From a virus, in the IMG/VR virus record IMGVR_UViG_3300018481_000092, positions 1-20,002 of that record: a stretch of DNA of 20,002 nt. The stretch is one strand, 5' to 3'. The notes below the pieces were generated by a model. It saw nothing but the letters and a program-made list of their open reading frames with translations, was not told the DNA's origin and ran no database searches. How positions within the stretch are numbered: position 1 is the stretch's first letter; each line of letters opens with the position of its first letter. The position numbers and the translations under genes are program-made. Of this stretch, positions 1,896 through 9,639 are shown one piece after another.

Positions 1896-1903
1896 TATTT
1901 ATA
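1896..1903 (-). promoter_or_regulatory. Exact T4-type late promoter motif TATAAATA
   Basis: The minus strand reads GTATAAATAAAATAG, an exact match to the T4 late promoter -10 consensus TATAAATA. The motif ends 24 bases before the ATG of the 484-residue fibre gene. It contains the TAA stop (1901-1899) of the radical SAM gene. Late promoters of this type need no -35 box; they are read with a gp55-like sigma factor and a sliding clamp, which would be encoded elsewhere in the genome. Of the four such motifs in the window, this is the best match. Confidence 0.68.
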
Positions 1904-3275
1904 CGGCCAATTTGGTTTCAACGGTTCTGGTTTTAGGAACGATAGACTGATCATTTAGGGATCCCCAAATATCTTGACGTTCCTCTGGCAAATGCGATGC
2001 ATTAATTCGATATGGAACATATCCTCCAGTAATCAGTTCAAAAGCAACAGCAAAATAAGGAAGATGGTCATTGTATGAATTATCACAAGATTTGTCCCAC
2101 AGATCATCTTCAAGATACATACAGGCACCCTTACATGCCTGAAGCATCGGACATTTTGGACAGTTTTTTCGAAGAGACCAATGGGTAGATGTGGTAAGTT
2201 TAATGTCTTCCATCTTGGAGACATGTCCAATTCTATGGGATTTGCCATTTGGTGCAATTGCAACTGCAGATGTATTATGACAGGTCAGAACATTTCCGTT
2301 AAGATCTACTGCCATCGTATCAGGTCTATCCATATTGCATTTTTGCATTAGAGTAGATGCAGGACGATGGCTTGAAATTGCATCTATCCATTCTTTGATT
2401 CTTTGTTTAGTAATCAAAAAATTCATAGTCAGAGATTCTCTAGTCTGTTCCATAGTAAGACGTCTGAATCCCAGCTGTTCTGCCTTACCATTAATGGCAT
2501 TTGCAGCACCACCGGCATCATAAGTGTCGATAAATCCGCCTTCGCCGATACTAAAATCATTTGTACCTAGGAAATCAGCAAAAAACTTCTGGATTGCAGC
2601 ACGATCCATGTTTTCACGATGGACCATAGCATTGATAGACATTCGATCTTTACCAAGACGTTTCCAAAGATCGCGAATGTTTGCAGCCTGTACTGGATTA
2701 TCAAATGGATCTGGACCTCTTACTATCTGTCCAGGACCATCGTGTGACATGCCAATGCTAAATTTCATTGTGTCGAGAAACTCATTGATTTCCGGTGTCA
2801 ACAAAGAACCATTGGTTACCATACCAAATTTAACCCCAGGAAATTTTTCACGAAGTGCAGTTGCAAGTGGTTTGAGTGTCTTCCAATATACCAGAGGTTC
2901 ACCGCCCCAAAACTGAAACTTTCTCGGCACATTCTTCAACCAGAGATCTAAATTCTTCATGAATTTAACTACTGCTTTTGGATTACCATTTTCAGCATGA
3001 GGAACGAAACGCTGTGAACAATATTCGCAACCATAGTTACAGGAAAGACCCATTTGAATTTTAATGTCTTGAATGTTAGTACTGTTCTTACCAAGCGGAT
3101 TCTTTGGGTCCGTGATAAGTGCCGTAGTCCATTCAATTTCTTTTTTAGACATTGGATCAATAATATGCGCTCCCTCAGAATTTTTAAGTTCTGAAGTCAT
3201 GTTGTCATAATAAAATTTAGCAATCCTAGGTCCTTTTCCAGGTATAGGCTTTGCTGCATGTATTTCAAAAATCAT
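1899..3275 (-). CDS. Radical SAM/SPASM-domain enzyme encoded in the tail operon
   Basis: This 458-residue protein carries the complete radical SAM signature C79xxxC83xxC86, which binds the [4Fe-4S] cluster that cleaves S-adenosylmethionine. GGEP at 124-127 (SAM binding) and TNG at 154-156 follow as expected in the barrel. The C-terminal third fits the SPASM pattern exactly: C313-x13-G-x4-C332, then C372-x2-C375-x5-C381-x3-C385, then C397. That predicts two auxiliary Fe-S clusters, as in anaerobic sulfatase-maturing enzymes, PqqE and thioether-forming RiPP enzymes. Family members usually modify a peptide or protein. The first 75 residues are unassigned and could bind substrate. The ATG overlaps the stop of the 75-residue gene (ATGA), the ribosome site is weak, and no promoter precedes it, so it should be made together with the tail proteins. 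The substrate is not known; the Cys-rich tract of the 2046-residue tail protein is a candidate. The family call is very secure, the target is inference. Confidence 0.95.
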   Translation of the reverse strand: MIFEIHAAKPIPGKGPRIAKFYYDNMTSELKNSEGAHIIDPMSKKEIEWTTALITDPKNPLGKNSTNIQDIKIQMGLSCNYGCEYCSQRFVPHAENGNPKAVVKFMKNLDLWLKNVPRKFQFWGGEPLVYWKTLKPLATALREKFPGVKFGMVTNGSLLTPEINEFLDTMKFSIGMSHDGPGQIVRGPDPFDNPVQAANIRDLWKRLGKDRMSINAMVHRENMDRAAIQKFFADFLGTNDFSIGEGGFIDTYDAGGAANAINGKAEQLGFRRLTMEQTRESLTMNFLITKQRIKEWIDAISSHRPASTLMQKCNMDRPDTMAVDLNGNVLTCHNTSAVAIAPNGKSHRIGHVSKMEDIKLTTSTHWSLRKNCPKCPMLQACKGACMYLEDDLWDKSCDNSYNDHLPYFAVAFELITGGYVPYRINASHLPEERQDIWGSLNDQSIVPKTRTVETKLAV

Positions 3276-3499
3276 TTAAGTTTTTCCATAAGTTGTGCTA
3301 ATAAATCTTTAATGTCAGATAGTTCCTTCTTGATAACTACTTGCTCTGCAGCAATGTGTTGTTGTTCTTCAAGCGCTTTCAGTTTCATATTTCTTGATGC
3401 TTTATATTGTTGCAAGCTAGATGCATCCGTGACGAGAATAGCTTTGTTACTCTCGTCTCTTAATAGTGTTTTCTCATCTTTGATTTTGACTAATTTCAT
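3272..3499 (-). CDS. Small coiled-coil phage protein
   Basis: This 75-residue protein starts at ATG (3499-3497), which shares one base with the TAA stop of the giant tail gene (TAATG). Its own TGA overlaps the ATG of the radical SAM gene (ATGA). No strong ribosome site is visible, so re-initiation from the upstream gene is likely. Residues 1-30 (MKLVKIKDEKTLLRDESNKAILVTDASSL) resemble small proteins found among tail genes of T4-like phages, which open with a short 'KAI..TD' segment. Residues about 40-75 form a charged helix with hydrophobic spacing (IKKELSDIKDLLAQLMEKL), predicted to be a coiled coil. Its role is unknown: a small virion component, an assembly chaperone, or an adaptor between its neighbours are all possible. 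The tight position on both sides argues that the gene is real. Confidence 0.8.
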   Translation of the reverse strand: MKLVKIKDEKTLLRDESNKAILVTDASSLQQYKASRNMKLKALEEQQHIAAEQVVIKKELSDIKDLLAQLMEKLK

Positions 3500-6400
3500 T
3501 AGATTTGTAGTGCTATTGCTCTGACATCCTGTAGTCTAGGTACTAGATGAGATCCTTCAGACATTAGAACAACCTTAACAGCAAATGCTTTATACGAATT
3601 ATAAATGATGCCTGTTGGGCTCGTATATGAAACAATGCTATTGACATTTGCAGAATCACGCCATGCTGAATTATCTCCAGGATTAGCTGGAACTGTTGGA
3701 AGATCATATTGAAATTCAATAAAATCTTGAAGATTTGTTTTAGATGAAACGAGCGTAGTTTTAGTTGTTAGCGGTGTCCATGCTTTTGAAGTGAAAGCAT
3801 CAGTATCTGCAATGTTCTGAAGTCTAGCATAAACATACATTGAAGTTCCTGCAGGCAAATAAGCACCAACATAAACTCTTAGATCTTCTGCATCCTGACC
3901 ATCAGCGAGAATTACAGCTTTAGAAATATACTTAACAATACCCGTACCAAAATTGGTCTTTTCAGAATCATAGATTGAAGTTCCCGACTCATTATTTACG
4001 ATGTTATAGATAGTCAACATTCCAAGTTTGATAGTATCAATTGCGGGCGAAGAACGCTCAATACCTGAAGTAAATTGTGCATACATCTTAAGTGATTTGT
4101 CACCACCTAGATTAATAATTTCATTAGTTCTAGACATGACTACGCGTTCACGATCATGGAAACTTTGTTCTGTTGCAAAGTTAAGCGCAAGATCAGAAGG
4201 ATCTTTAACATAACCAAGTGTAGTATTTGCAGTACCACGCAGACTGAAAGTCAATGAAGTAGGCGGAGGAATAGATACTGCAAGTTTAGGCATAACTGTA
4301 TTGTATGGCATATCCATAATTGAAACAATATTTGCAGAAGCATTAGAAGTCGCGCCAATTACTTTAGTATTTGCAGAGAGATAATAATTTACATCTGAGG
4401 TAGATGCATTAAGAATAAGCGTATTTGCTGCCTGATAAACTGCATTGACTCTACCAGTCAACAAACCATTCTTTCTAAGATGGCCAATGCCGCAATCTGG
4501 ATCTGTAAATGCAGGTACAGTATTGATAATAATAGCAGTAGCATTTACTACTGACTGGACGTTTGCAGTAAAGGAAACAGTATTAGTATTAGAAGTAATG
4601 TAAATTTTAGAATTTGCTTCAAAGGTAGTGCTGTTTGCAACACCGACGCCCCCGCCGATAATGACGGTAGTGTTTCCAGCAACTACAGAAACATTGTTTG
4701 CATAGAATTCCCCATTGGATAGGTATGCAGTTTCTCCAGTTTCAAAGGCACCGAGATAATTGTTATAAAGAATATATTCAGCATCATCATTAGTAAAACA
4801 TGCTCGGGAATCAAGTTCAGTAAAGGTCAGGCGATAAATCGCCATCTTCATATCTTCCTGCTGATATGCAGTCCAACCAGAATCTACCGATGAAGTAAAG
4901 AATTTACCAAGGAACGAATTATCAAATGTTTTTGCCCCCGTGGTAACATCCGGGCTACCACCGAGAGCAGCAGTCCATAGAGCGTAATTCGGATTATAAC
5001 CGTCCGCACGAACAACAACACAATATTCAGTTCGAGTCGATAAAAATAGCGGAGCATCAAAAACAACCGTTGTTGGAAGACTTGCATTTTCAGAAACTGT
5101 AACTTCAGCAGAGGTTAAATGCTTCTGACCGAATGGAACAATCTTCGTTGAAGGATAACCGTTTTCCATTTCTCTAATATAAACGGTGCAACCAAGATTT
5201 GGATCTTTACGTTCAAAATAAATGTCAATAGCAGAGACGTAAATGCCTCCGATAGATTGAGCTCTGAAGGTTTCTTCTGGCATTCTCCAAGATTGAGCGC
5301 AAGGTGAACCACCACCGCCGCCACCGTCACCACCATCACCGCAGGCACAAGCGCAAGCGCAGTCACAATTACAATCGGCTACTGGTTCAACTTGTGGTAC
5401 GCCGTTTACTATCGTGTAAGTTCTGATAGTAGAAGTTGGATTTGGTGATGTACTGGATGAAACAATAGCAGTAGTATCAGTAATCGTAGCAGAATAATTC
5501 TGTGTATCAGTAGTGTTTAGACCAATGTTATTCTTTGCATATGTTAAATTCGTACCGAAGAATGTTGATGTAGCAGATGATAACAGAATAGTATTATCAG
5601 TAACCAGATTATCAATATCAAGAACGCGAAACTTACGTTCGCCCGTTCTAAATGTTCCACGTGGAATGTTAAACGAGCCATATAGTGATCCAGAAGCGTC
5701 TGAAACCAACGGCCCGCCAACTGGAAAAACTGTCGGATTATTTGGAAGTATTTGGCGGCAATACTCCGTGATTGGCGTTTCATCGAAATATGTCCACATC
5801 CTCTGGTTCGGCTTAATGCCATGTGCTTCAAAAAGAACCTGTTGAGGTCTAATGAACGGCTGAAGTGCTACGTCGGTAACATAGGAACCAAGTTGATATG
5901 ATTGACTTGAAGAAGTAGTTGCAGTTGCCTGCCCTTCTCTTTGTAGATTTGAAGTCGTGGTAGTAGTTGTAGTACCGCCACCAAAAATGTAATCATTCTC
6001 AATGATAGAAATAGCATTAGGATTATAAATGCCAGTCTGTGCATAATACTGATCAATTGTTAGTGCAGCAGTACCAGATAAGGTACCTGATGGACTATAT
6101 CCGCCAGAAGATGATACTGAAGTACTAGAGCTAGTTTCTCTCCAAGTTCCCCACTGTGTAGACCAACCAAGTTGAGGTGAATTTGCAACCTGTGCTTGTG
6201 TATAAACATAATTGCTATGTGATGAAAGATTTACAACTACGTCTGGATTAATGCTTACATCAGGATGATAGTCGCCTTCTGGTCTAAGGGTAAGAGTACC
6301 AGCCCAACGGTATGAAACGTCCTGAGATGGTGAGCGAAGTTGTGTAGCAAAATATTGAAATAGATATGGTGCAGTAACCCGTTCATTTTTCAGAAGAATA

Positions 6401-9400
6401 AGACGCCCATTAGTAGAAACTACGACTGAATTTGAAGGAACAGAATTAGCAAGTTGTAGATTAATAAGTTCTTGTGTGAAGATTGGACGAGCTTCAGTAG
6501 TGTCAGAATCAATAGCAATGTTATATTGTGGATTTATCGTGTCACCAATTGAATGGTCATTAAACGGATCTACAAGAATACCATTCTTAAATCTGTTCAG
6601 ATCTGTTGTTGATGGAATAAGAAGATTCTTTGTTGCCTGTTCAAGGGCATTAAGAACCGTGTAATATTCTACGACTTGAAGACGCTGATCAATGCTTCCA
6701 ATATCATGCATCGTATAACGACGGTTTTTCATGTAATTGAAAGTGATAACCGAAGCATAAGAACCAGAGACGCGCACGTCATCCATAGTCAAAGATGGAT
6801 ATGGTGAAATACTTGCAAGTGCAAGATCAATACCGTTTACAACAGATGGTGCAGGAACAGGAGATTCTGAAGGAGTTCCTTCGATGATAAGAAGAGCACC
6901 CTTTGTATCCATACCAATACGATCTTGTCGACCAAGATAATACTGAAGATCGGTCTCAAATGAGGCATCGAGTGCAGGAATATATGCCGCAGAAGTATTG
7001 AGGGTTAATGTGTTAGCAGGATTGATTGACGCAGCAGCTGCTGTGGTTGCATATGCTGCAGTATTTGTTGCATACAATCTGAAGTCGATAGAATTTCTAT
7101 ATGAGAATACTTTACCATCTGATTTAGATTTATATGTTGGAATATATTGCGTGAAGATAGTATTTGCAGTAACACCAGTGTCATCTACAGGATAAGATTC
7201 CACAGAGAAGAATCCAACACCGGATGATACGTCTGGTTTGAATACCGCAAGTTCTACCAACAATCTATCTGCAGAAAGCAATGGAGATTTTGGAGTGATC
7301 TTTGCCAGACCATAATACATGTCAGTCTGACCAGAGTCAAAATTGAAAGATGATTTTACTTCTGGATTAGTATTTGCATATGTAGAACCTTTCCAGATAT
7401 TCTTAACAGCAAAAATATCAGGAAAACCAAGGCAATATGGACCTATAACATTTGAAGTACAATCAATCTTCACGAATACAGAAGTGAGCAGTTTCTTAGA
7501 TGCAGGAACAGCTGCTGTTCTGCGGACATTGTAATAGATAGTACCATAGAATGGAGCAGTGAATACTTTATTGAGTGCAAAGGTTGCCGTATTTGCTGGC
7601 GTTCCAGAGATAGTAATAGTCTGTCCGCCCTGTGTTGAAACAGGAATAACCTGACCCTGTACATAAGTCTGCCAATAAGCAGAGTTTGTATAGGTATTAG
7701 AAAACGGAGTAGAAATGGTAAGCGTTGTAGGAGTTACTGCTGTAATTCTACGAGTCGCAAAGTCAATAGTATTACCAACTGTAATACAGTCACCGACATT
7801 AAGACTAGCACCGGTAACAAAGTTGTTTACCTGACCTACAGTAAATGTGACGCTAGTACCTGTAGTTTGTACTCGTCCCGCAAGATTAGCAGTGTTGATC
7901 AGTGAGTTAGCAACAACGATGAAGTCGCGTTCAGATACAGAATCCAGAACACCAATACCGTAAGTGAACTTATTAACGCCACCGACACCTGAAGATGGAA
8001 CCGAAAGAATGCCTACGCCGGTATTGGAGAATGCGATATTTGAAGAAGTTCTAAAATCAAATTGAGTAACGACGGTGTTTGCTGAACTCTTAAGGTTTTT
8101 AACTGCAGATGCAGCATCATTTGTCAACGGATAGATAAGGCGCTTTAGAGTGTTATCATAAAGAACAGCAGCGCCGTTTTCTAGTACACAATCACCGAAT
8201 CCCTTTTGACCAGCTGTAATAGTATAAAGTGATTTAATGTTTTCAAAAGATTGACCAGAGTTCATAACAACGTCAAATAGATAAACTCTAAATTTGCCGG
8301 TTGGAGTAGCACCGGCATCGGAGTCAAATTCTACCGCAAGAAGTTTTGCAGTACCGATTTCAGCACCAGGTGCTGCAAGTGCATCTATAGAATTACCTAT
8401 AGATGAAACGGTAGAAATAGCTTGAGCAGTTGCAGAACGAAGTGAAACGGTAGCTCCTGTAGTAATACTCCAATGTCCTGCAAATTCTGTGCAATAGACG
8501 AAGTTACCCATTGTGATGGTAGTAACTTGACTTTCAAGGTATCGAATATCGGTACCCTTACGAAGTTTGTTTACGAGTTTACCTACCGTTTCAACACGAT
8601 AACCATGAATATAAGCAAGACCTGGATCAACTTCTAATCTTACATTTTGAGTATCTACTGAACCGTTGGCAAGATAACGGGTAAGGGTTCGCATATTGAA
8701 TGGTGAAATAACATAGTTGCCCGATTCTTCATCGGTACGTCGGGCAAGTTGTGCACCCAGAGTAGCATAGTTTGGATCGGTGTTGATAATCGTGGGATAA
8801 CCCTCTACGAAATTTACGAGAGGGAAGAATGAATTTGTAGTATTTGAGAAATTAGTATTTTGTACTTTAAGAACAGGAGTTAACTTAAGACGATGTGCAC
8901 CAGGAGCAGCATAGTTTGGAGAACCTGCAGCATTGTCAAGCAGTGATGGATCGGCTTCTGGGGTTACTAGAGTTTCGATAAGATCGAAACCAACGGAAAT
9001 ACCGTCTGGGAATCCTGAATACTTAGAGATAATCAGTGACTGGGGTTCAACACCGACAAAGAATCCCTGAGAGAAAATAGTTCCATCAGTTACGTTAGTA
9101 GATACAGAGAATCCACGGAATTTTGTGTTTCCGGTATTAATAGTATTTGCCGTGGTCAACTGACCAATGATACTATTAGATGAAGTTTTCAGTGTAAGTA
9201 CTTGATCTGTATCAAAAAATCGAGTTACATTATCGTTTGCGGTAGTCAGATAGTTAATATAGAGCGTATTTAGATCTGGTGCTGCAGGAAGTGCACCAGC
9301 AGAAGCATCAACGATATGTGCTCTAATACCATTCGATGACTCAACATAACTTCCGATGAAGTTGTCGATAGTAAAGGTTGAACCGTTAGCATAGGTATCA

Positions 9401-9639
9401 AGAATTTTGATGTATTGAAGATTAGTAGAGAATGACAGTTCACACTTTTCTACTACAGAACCGTCCGTGAAGATGTGACGACCAAATTTTTCAATCTGAT
9501 CCTGTAAGATTGTTTGACTTCCAGTAAGTTCCTGAACCTGAACTGGAACTCCTGCACGATATTCGACACGATGAAAATGATTATTTGCCTTAAAATTATC
9601 AAAATAAGGAGGTCTGGATAAGTCAATCTTCGTAGTCAA
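3499..9639 (-). CDS. Giant DUF4815-type tail/baseplate protein with Cys-rich tract
   Basis: This 2046-residue protein starts at TTG (9639-9637), with AAAGGA 8 bases upstream and an in-frame stop just before. The opening TKIDLSRPPYFDNF, then YRAGVPVQVQELTGSQTILQDQI at about residues 27-50, matches the start of phage DUF4815 proteins, so TTG is convincing. Residues about 590-660 hold a beta module (GDCITVGNTI, ITAVTPTTLTIS) of a kind also present in its gp7- and gp8-like neighbours. A Ser/Thr/Gly linker with a seven-threonine run precedes a conserved segment at about 1250-1300 (YVTDVALQPFIRPQQV, then FDETPITEYC). Residues 1423-1447 are the Cys-rich tract. From 1446 a domain (PCAQSW, DIYFERKDPNLGCTVYIREM) resembles the 'DPLAQTF' domain of T4-like virion proteins. 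No catalytic site is visible. It probably forms a peripheral baseplate or fibre-connecting structure. It lies 17 bases after the gp8-like gene. Confidence 0.88.
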   Translation of the reverse strand: MTTKIDLSRPPYFDNFKANNHFHRVEYRAGVPVQVQELTGSQTILQDQIEKFGRHIFTDGSVVEKCELSFSTNLQYIKILDTYANGSTFTIDNFIGSYVESSNGIRAHIVDASAGALPAAPDLNTLYINYLTTANDNVTRFFDTDQVLTLKTSSNSIIGQLTTANTINTGNTKFRGFSVSTNVTDGTIFSQGFFVGVEPQSLIISKYSGFPDGISVGFDLIETLVTPEADPSLLDNAAGSPNYAAPGAHRLKLTPVLKVQNTNFSNTTNSFFPLVNFVEGYPTIINTDPNYATLGAQLARRTDEESGNYVISPFNMRTLTRYLANGSVDTQNVRLEVDPGLAYIHGYRVETVGKLVNKLRKGTDIRYLESQVTTITMGNFVYCTEFAGHWSITTGATVSLRSATAQAISTVSSIGNSIDALAAPGAEIGTAKLLAVEFDSDAGATPTGKFRVYLFDVVMNSGQSFENIKSLYTITAGQKGFGDCVLENGAAVLYDNTLKRLIYPLTNDAASAVKNLKSSANTVVTQFDFRTSSNIAFSNTGVGILSVPSSGVGGVNKFTYGIGVLDSVSERDFIVVANSLINTANLAGRVQTTGTSVTFTVGQVNNFVTGASLNVGDCITVGNTIDFATRRITAVTPTTLTISTPFSNTYTNSAYWQTYVQGQVIPVSTQGGQTITISGTPANTATFALNKVFTAPFYGTIYYNVRRTAAVPASKKLLTSVFVKIDCTSNVIGPYCLGFPDIFAVKNIWKGSTYANTNPEVKSSFNFDSGQTDMYYGLAKITPKSPLLSADRLLVELAVFKPDVSSGVGFFSVESYPVDDTGVTANTIFTQYIPTYKSKSDGKVFSYRNSIDFRLYATNTAAYATTAAAASINPANTLTLNTSAAYIPALDASFETDLQYYLGRQDRIGMDTKGALLIIEGTPSESPVPAPSVVNGIDLALASISPYPSLTMDDVRVSGSYASVITFNYMKNRRYTMHDIGSIDQRLQVVEYYTVLNALEQATKNLLIPSTTDLNRFKNGILVDPFNDHSIGDTINPQYNIAIDSDTTEARPIFTQELINLQLANSVPSNSVVVSTNGRLILLKNERVTAPYLFQYFATQLRSPSQDVSYRWAGTLTLRPEGDYHPDVSINPDVVVNLSSHSNYVYTQAQVANSPQLGWSTQWGTWRETSSSTSVSSSGGYSPSGTLSGTAALTIDQYYAQTGIYNPNAISIIENDYIFGGGTTTTTTTSNLQREGQATATTSSSQSYQLGSYVTDVALQPFIRPQQVLFEAHGIKPNQRMWTYFDETPITEYCRQILPNNPTVFPVGGPLVSDASGSLYGSFNIPRGTFRTGERKFRVLDIDNLVTDNTILLSSATSTFFGTNLTYAKNNIGLNTTDTQNYSATITDTTAIVSSSTSPNPTSTIRTYTIVNGVPQVEPVADCNCDCACACACGDGGDGGGGGGSPCAQSWRMPEETFRAQSIGGIYVSAIDIYFERKDPNLGCTVYIREMENGYPSTKIVPFGQKHLTSAEVTVSENASLPTTVVFDAPLFLSTRTEYCVVVRADGYNPNYALWTAALGGSPDVTTGAKTFDNSFLGKFFTSSVDSGWTAYQQEDMKMAIYRLTFTELDSRACFTNDDAEYILYNNYLGAFETGETAYLSNGEFYANNVSVVAGNTTVIIGGGVGVANSTTFEANSKIYITSNTNTVSFTANVQSVVNATAIIINTVPAFTDPDCGIGHLRKNGLLTGRVNAVYQAANTLILNASTSDVNYYLSANTKVIGATSNASANIVSIMDMPYNTVMPKLAVSIPPPTSLTFSLRGTANTTLGYVKDPSDLALNFATEQSFHDRERVVMSRTNEIINLGGDKSLKMYAQFTSGIERSSPAIDTIKLGMLTIYNIVNNESGTSIYDSEKTNFGTGIVKYISKAVILADGQDAEDLRVYVGAYLPAGTSMYVYARLQNIADTDAFTSKAWTPLTTKTTLVSSKTNLQDFIEFQYDLPTVPANPGDNSAWRDSANVNSIVSYTSPTGIIYNSYKAFAVKVVLMSEGSHLVPRLQDVRAIALQI
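5299..5373 (-). other. Alternating Cys-X-Cys tract in the giant tail protein
   Basis: This segment encodes residues 1423-1447 of the 2046-residue protein. Six cysteines alternate with Asn, Asp or Ala (C1423 N C D C A C A C A C1433). A Gly/Asp linker ending in six glycines follows, then Ser-Pro-C1447. The other roughly eleven cysteines of this protein are scattered singly, so the cluster stands out. It sits at the joint between the Thr/Ser-rich middle and the conserved 'DPLAQTF'-like domain, where C1447 takes the Leu position. It could be a metal site, a disulfide staple between chains of a trimer, or a substrate for the downstream radical SAM enzyme. The sequence is certain, the role is not. 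Confidence 0.85.

Follow-up and report, generated by a model that had tools for sequence, protein, structure and literature searches.

A phage-encoded radical SAM/SPASM enzyme as candidate maturase of an alternating cysteine tract in a virion tail protein

Gene order and the cysteine tract

The window, that is, the whole stretch of DNA analysed, is an entire viral record, a fragment of 20,002 bases. A large tail-protein gene, an ORF of 75 aa and the gene for a radical SAM/SPASM enzyme lie together on its minus strand, and the TAATG and ATGA overlaps by which the first-pass annotation had joined these three genes were confirmed. The features of the region are:

1899–3275, minus strand: radical SAM/SPASM enzyme of 458 aa, the proposed Cys-tract maturase (Radical_SAM and SPASM matches)
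2085–2339, minus strand: seven-Cys SPASM auxiliary-cluster region of the enzyme (TIGR04085; C313, C332, C372, C375, C381, C385 and C397)
3018–3041, minus strand: CX3CX2C radical SAM cluster motif of the enzyme, residues 79–86 (C79, C83 and C86 invariant among 61 relatives)
3272–3499, minus strand: 75-aa protein (phrog_473, 'virion structural protein', E 1.2e-12)
3499–9639, minus strand: DUF4815 tail protein, the proposed substrate (Pfam PF16075, E 2.6e-47; phrog_358)
5299–5340, minus strand: linker GDGGDGGGGGGSPC directly after the tract, from comparison with enzyme-less relatives
5341–5373, minus strand: alternating Cys tract CNCDCACACAC, residues 1423–1433 of the tail protein

The tail protein ORF has a TTG start and encodes 2046 aa. 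Its tract lies in a Gly/Asp-rich linker and is followed by a further 613 residues, which is unusual among tract carriers. The codons are mixed for both Cys and Ala (TGT AAT TGT GAC TGC GCT TGC GCT TGT GCC TGC), and the CNCDCACACAC pattern therefore belongs to the protein and not to a DNA repeat; DNA slippage, or a microsatellite, was ruled out as its origin. A match of the tract to the bacteriocin model PF25184 (E 0.05; 15 versus 40 bits) was rejected as an effect of composition, and no conclusion was drawn from a structural model of a tail fragment, which was built from three sequences and had a pLDDT of 36.

The Cys tract is absent from the DUF4815 proteins of all seven phages examined that lack the enzyme. 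In the window, SPCAQSW replaces the DPLAQSF (or similar) of enzyme-less phages, and the last Cys of the linker GDGGDGGGGGGSPC occupies the position of the Leu in that motif. The same Leu to Cys replacement is present in L241 and L003, the DUF4815 proteins of which conserve N-C-D-C plus a later P-C. Conservation of these residues suggests a minimal core that would consist of the cysteines of N-C-D-C and P-C.

The first-pass annotation proposed a maturase–substrate system comprising all three genes, in which the 75-aa protein was either an adaptor or simply a structural piece. The adaptor role was rejected, since enzyme-less phages, too, have a short ORF behind the DUF4815 gene. An ORF of about 67–82 aa, compared by size and position, lies immediately behind this gene in six of the seven enzyme-less phages, and the one-base overlap between the two genes seen in the window is shared by three enzyme-less phages. 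Together with the phrog_473 match, this comparison favours the structural alternative, and the 75-aa protein is best read as an ordinary tail component. The fibre-like protein encoded downstream (417–1871), which had been named as a possible alternative substrate, contains no Cys tract. The other part of the proposal, the pairing of the enzyme with the tract, stood when co-occurrence was followed in both directions, as described below.

Relationships of the enzyme

In a profile search, the enzyme matches Radical_SAM (E 1.5e-10), and it scores 33.3 bits against the SPASM model TIGR04085, over the cutoff of 27. The CX3CX2C motif in the radical SAM core places it in the radical SAM superfamily, and the seven-Cys auxiliary-cluster motif, in which all seven Cys are invariant among 61 enzyme relatives, places it in the SPASM subfamily. 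The best NCBIfam models for the enzyme are PapB, QhpD and CcpM, all of them far under their cutoffs. Eight family members were compared with the models, and every one matches those of PapB and QhpD, with PapB leading and scores far below the cutoffs. On these scores, the enzyme is a predicted separate subfamily, apart from the named radical SAM families. At least 517 IMG/VR stretches were matched by the family and, in the enzyme tree, the window enzyme clusters with that of L003 (support 99/93) within the tract-bearing family.

An AlphaFold2 model of the enzyme has a pLDDT of 94.7 and, among PDB structures, comes closest in fold to CteB and anSME, at TM-scores of about 0.5. The model begins with N-terminal strands, without a three-helix winged helix, the presence of an RRE being judged here from predicted structure only.

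Co-occurrence of enzyme and tract

Relatives of the enzyme were drawn from viral contigs and genomes, and the surrounding DNA was scanned in six frames for C[N/D/A]C... tracts; the counted set comprised the 110 enzyme ORFs for which 3.5 kb or more was available upstream. A strict regular expression found a tract near 94 of the 110, compared with a mean of 2.7 and a maximum of 8 after within-ORF shuffling of the residues. Eight of the 16 misses were tracts ending in a CC run, such as CNCNCACDCCC, and, with these included, 102/110 enzyme ORFs lie near a gene that encodes a C[N/D/A]C[N/D/A]C tract; many of the enzyme loci are closely related and these counts are not independent. Variant tracts are present in three further enzyme relatives. 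In L187 and L220 they are split or near-terminal. The third, L233 (Polynucleobacter necessarius), is a decayed prophage in which the enzyme is broken, the J gene is fragmented and the fibre ends in YYNCNCDRNCGC; it enters the 16 exceptions twice, as pieces. A further exception is the truncated second enzyme of L222. Counting against the pairing are L214 and L185, which have full flanks yet no tract near the enzyme and are both apparently rearranged, and also L003, the nearest relative of the window with the same gene order, which has NCDC only and no longer tract throughout its 89.6-kb record. L004 encodes two enzymes and two tract proteins.

In the reverse direction, a scan for a seven-Cys DNA pattern was dominated by CT/CA microsatellites, which were used as negative controls, and the enzyme was present in none of the 45 microsatellite-type records. 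The same scan yielded 15 loci with the enzyme, in every one of which the tract contains Asn/Asp; L023 and L063 were added by record search. With a more specific five-Cys pattern, the enzyme was found within the locus in 66 of 119 records, rising to approximately 87 of 119 when whole-record searches were included, some of these via more distant family members. Approximately 32 of the 119 records have no detected enzyme, which counts against the pairing; about half of these are shorter than 15 kb.

A further set of loci was fetched by means of a J-like tail-tip protein (alignment A2), blind to the presence of the enzyme. Among the 36 control loci with sufficient downstream sequence, and with a tract defined as at least four Cys, 11 have both enzyme and tract, 25 have neither and none is discordant (36/36 in agreement); some of the 11 are near-duplicates, and a p-value is therefore withheld. 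In isolated phages, enzyme and tract are both present in JWF and 2-1 (Achromobacter phages) and both absent from the related phages Lumi and Seuss. The first-pass annotation had suggested that the absence of a correlation between enzyme and tract across related genomes would speak against the pairing; phylogenetic profiling, run both ways, instead gives a correlation that strongly supports it. Akkermansia and Bacteroidetes MAG labels attached to phage loci were not taken as hosts.

When the tract carriers were compared with the tract omitted, 13 sequence groups were obtained, one of them spurious, which leaves about 11–12 unrelated scaffolds. In most relatives the carriers are fibre-type proteins with a C-terminal tract, and the tract does not lie in the interior of a giant protein; it ends 0–7 residues ahead of the stop in 90 of 101 unique ORFs. 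The residues between the Cys vary (N 244, A 76, D 68), Cys being the fixed position. Most of the remaining tract ORFs run on into a Hint domain, which directly follows the Cys tract in L001 (13684–14244), L140, L190, L191, L203 and L219. Well-supported branches of the enzyme tree require at least three changes of Hint state, that is, gain or loss more than once. In these relatives, the self-cleaving domain could release the tract as a new C-terminus.

A relative of the 2OG-Fe(II) oxygenases is encoded in 83 of 106 enzyme loci, and a protein of approximately 270 aa, with a KxGFKYFxG-like C-terminus, in 75 of the 106. In the loci mapped (e.g. L004, L161, L207 and L217), both usually lie between the tract gene and the enzyme gene, and neither was found in any of 69 controls, some of which are short. 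Both are also missing from the available sequence of the window, L003 and L135; on this distribution, the enzyme and the tract appear to be the core of the system.

Proposed modification, alternatives and comparison with known systems

The enzyme and the tract occur together so consistently, and on unrelated tail proteins, that the tract is very probably the substrate which the enzyme modifies. The reading preferred here is that of a dedicated phage-encoded radical SAM/SPASM maturase acting on the alternating Cys tract of a virion tail protein, and a probability of about 0.75 is assigned to it. Counted against it are the enzyme's scores, which lie under every family cutoff, and a model in which no RRE-like domain is seen. 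If enzyme and tract proteins merely travelled together in a tail cargo module, with no mutual action, a neighbourhood common to most loci and the close relationship of many of them would be accounted for. The association holds, however, on scaffolds that are unrelated, in both T4-like and J-type tails and in several hosts, and the tract is missing from homologous proteins where the enzyme is missing; linkage alone is thus very improbable. Multi-Cys strings bind soft metals, and metal ions can occur in phage tail tips. On such general grounds the tract might be a metal- or Fe-S-binding knot, with another component of the tail module as the target of the enzyme, but no other element common to the unrelated tract proteins was found, and the enzyme of the window, like that of L135, adjoins the tract gene with neither the 2OG oxygenase nor the 270-aa partner. 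This explanation, too, is improbable.

By analogy with characterized enzymes, thioether cross-linking is marginally favoured as the chemistry of the proposed maturase. A 5'-deoxyadenosyl radical would take hydrogen from Asn, Asp or Ala of the tract, and a bond from Cys sulfur to the abstracted residue would give a series of thioethers and, in consequence, a compact non-reducible knot. PapB tolerates Cys-Xn-Asp with n = 0–6, its links being both in-line and nested (PMC9413430), and QhpD links Cys to Asp or Glu within a protein subunit, as thioethers (PMC7876137); this range of substrates makes the neighbouring residues of CNCDCACACAC plausible partners. Alternatively, the enzyme could modify the tract without forming thioethers, through formylglycine formation as in anSME, epimerization of the alternating residues as in EpeE, or C–C cross-links. 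Several observations are in keeping with this: anSME is among the top folds of the enzyme model, with similar E-values, the enzyme of phage JWF carries the annotation sulfatase-maturating enzyme, alternation is also a possible signature of a repeat epimerase, and EpeE/YydG matches the enzyme weakly in sequence and fold. Set against these are the fixed Cys and variable intervening residue, which imply sulfur as the reactant, and the lead of the thioether former PapB amongst the models matched by the family members. A modification of the tract other than thioether formation is, on balance, rather unlikely.

If the tract is cross-linked by thioethers, it might serve as a rigid tip or joint that withstands proteases and reductants, a role that is put forward tentatively. 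The tract would be a portable tag, attached in relatives to tail-fibre proteins or small Cys-rich proteins that are unrelated to one another and nearly always forming their last residues, which in a fibre would place it at the distal tip. It is an evenly balanced question whether all of this belongs to a widespread phage system with RiPP-like tail-tip chemistry, in which radical SAM enzymes would cross-link a portable Cys-x-Cys tag on unrelated tail proteins, typically at the distal fibre tip, with a Hint domain in some cases exposing the tag and a 2OG-Fe(II) oxygenase in some cases alongside.

Radical SAM maturases are known in peptide natural products, cofactors and a few enzymes. In the maturation of the ranthipeptide freyrasin by PapB (NF047865), as is proposed for the present locus, the gene for a radical SAM/SPASM enzyme lies beside that of its substrate, which is Cys-rich and repeated, with acidic or amide residues. 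The window enzyme nevertheless falls outside the PapB family (65.6 bits; cutoff 340), and its proposed substrates are virion proteins that carry alternating CxC and range in length from about 80 to 2000 aa, whereas that of PapB is a short leader–core peptide with CX3D. As with QhpD and the gamma subunit of quinohemoprotein amine dehydrogenase (TIGR03906), the proposed target is a protein subunit and not a peptide antibiotic (PMC7876137). Here again the enzyme lies outside the family (50.5 bits; cutoff 453), and QhpC differs from the tract proteins in its leader of 28 residues and its three defined links. The CteB/SCIFF maturases (TIGR03974; PDB 5wgg and 5why) are the nearest in fold (E 3.4e-12, TM about 0.5), but the enzyme scores 31.5 bits against their cutoff of 425, and no RRE-like N-terminal domain is seen in the model of the window enzyme. 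Fold scores are similar for the anSME sulfatase maturases (TIGR03942; PDB 4k36–4k39), the target of which is a protein Cys or Ser; the enzyme is not a member of this family (42.7 bits against a cutoff of 349.45), and there is no sulfatase in the window. In contrast to RiPP systems, there is no short precursor of leader and core, the proposed substrate being a 2046-aa tail protein and, in relatives, mostly a fibre-type protein.

The literature searched, which covered subscription journals little and is weak evidence of absence, yielded no virion protein matured by a radical SAM enzyme and no pairing of such an enzyme with the tract. The enzyme superfamily is known and the chemistry is probably known; the substrate class and its setting have no precedent known to us. 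If correct, the proposed maturation would be a new kind of virus-particle maturation, would add phage tail tips to the substrates of radical SAM enzymes as a new class and would explain the recurrent CNCNC ends of phage fibres. The large family of enzymes matched in IMG/VR would then also be a source of enzymes for a short transferable tag.

Three of the viral records (G059, G063 and G082, containing loci L365, L371 and L417) have three radical SAM matches each. These loci also contain an ORF of 71–76 aa with a C-terminal CNCNCNCNC or similar, which is possibly a small-peptide version of the enzyme–tract system.
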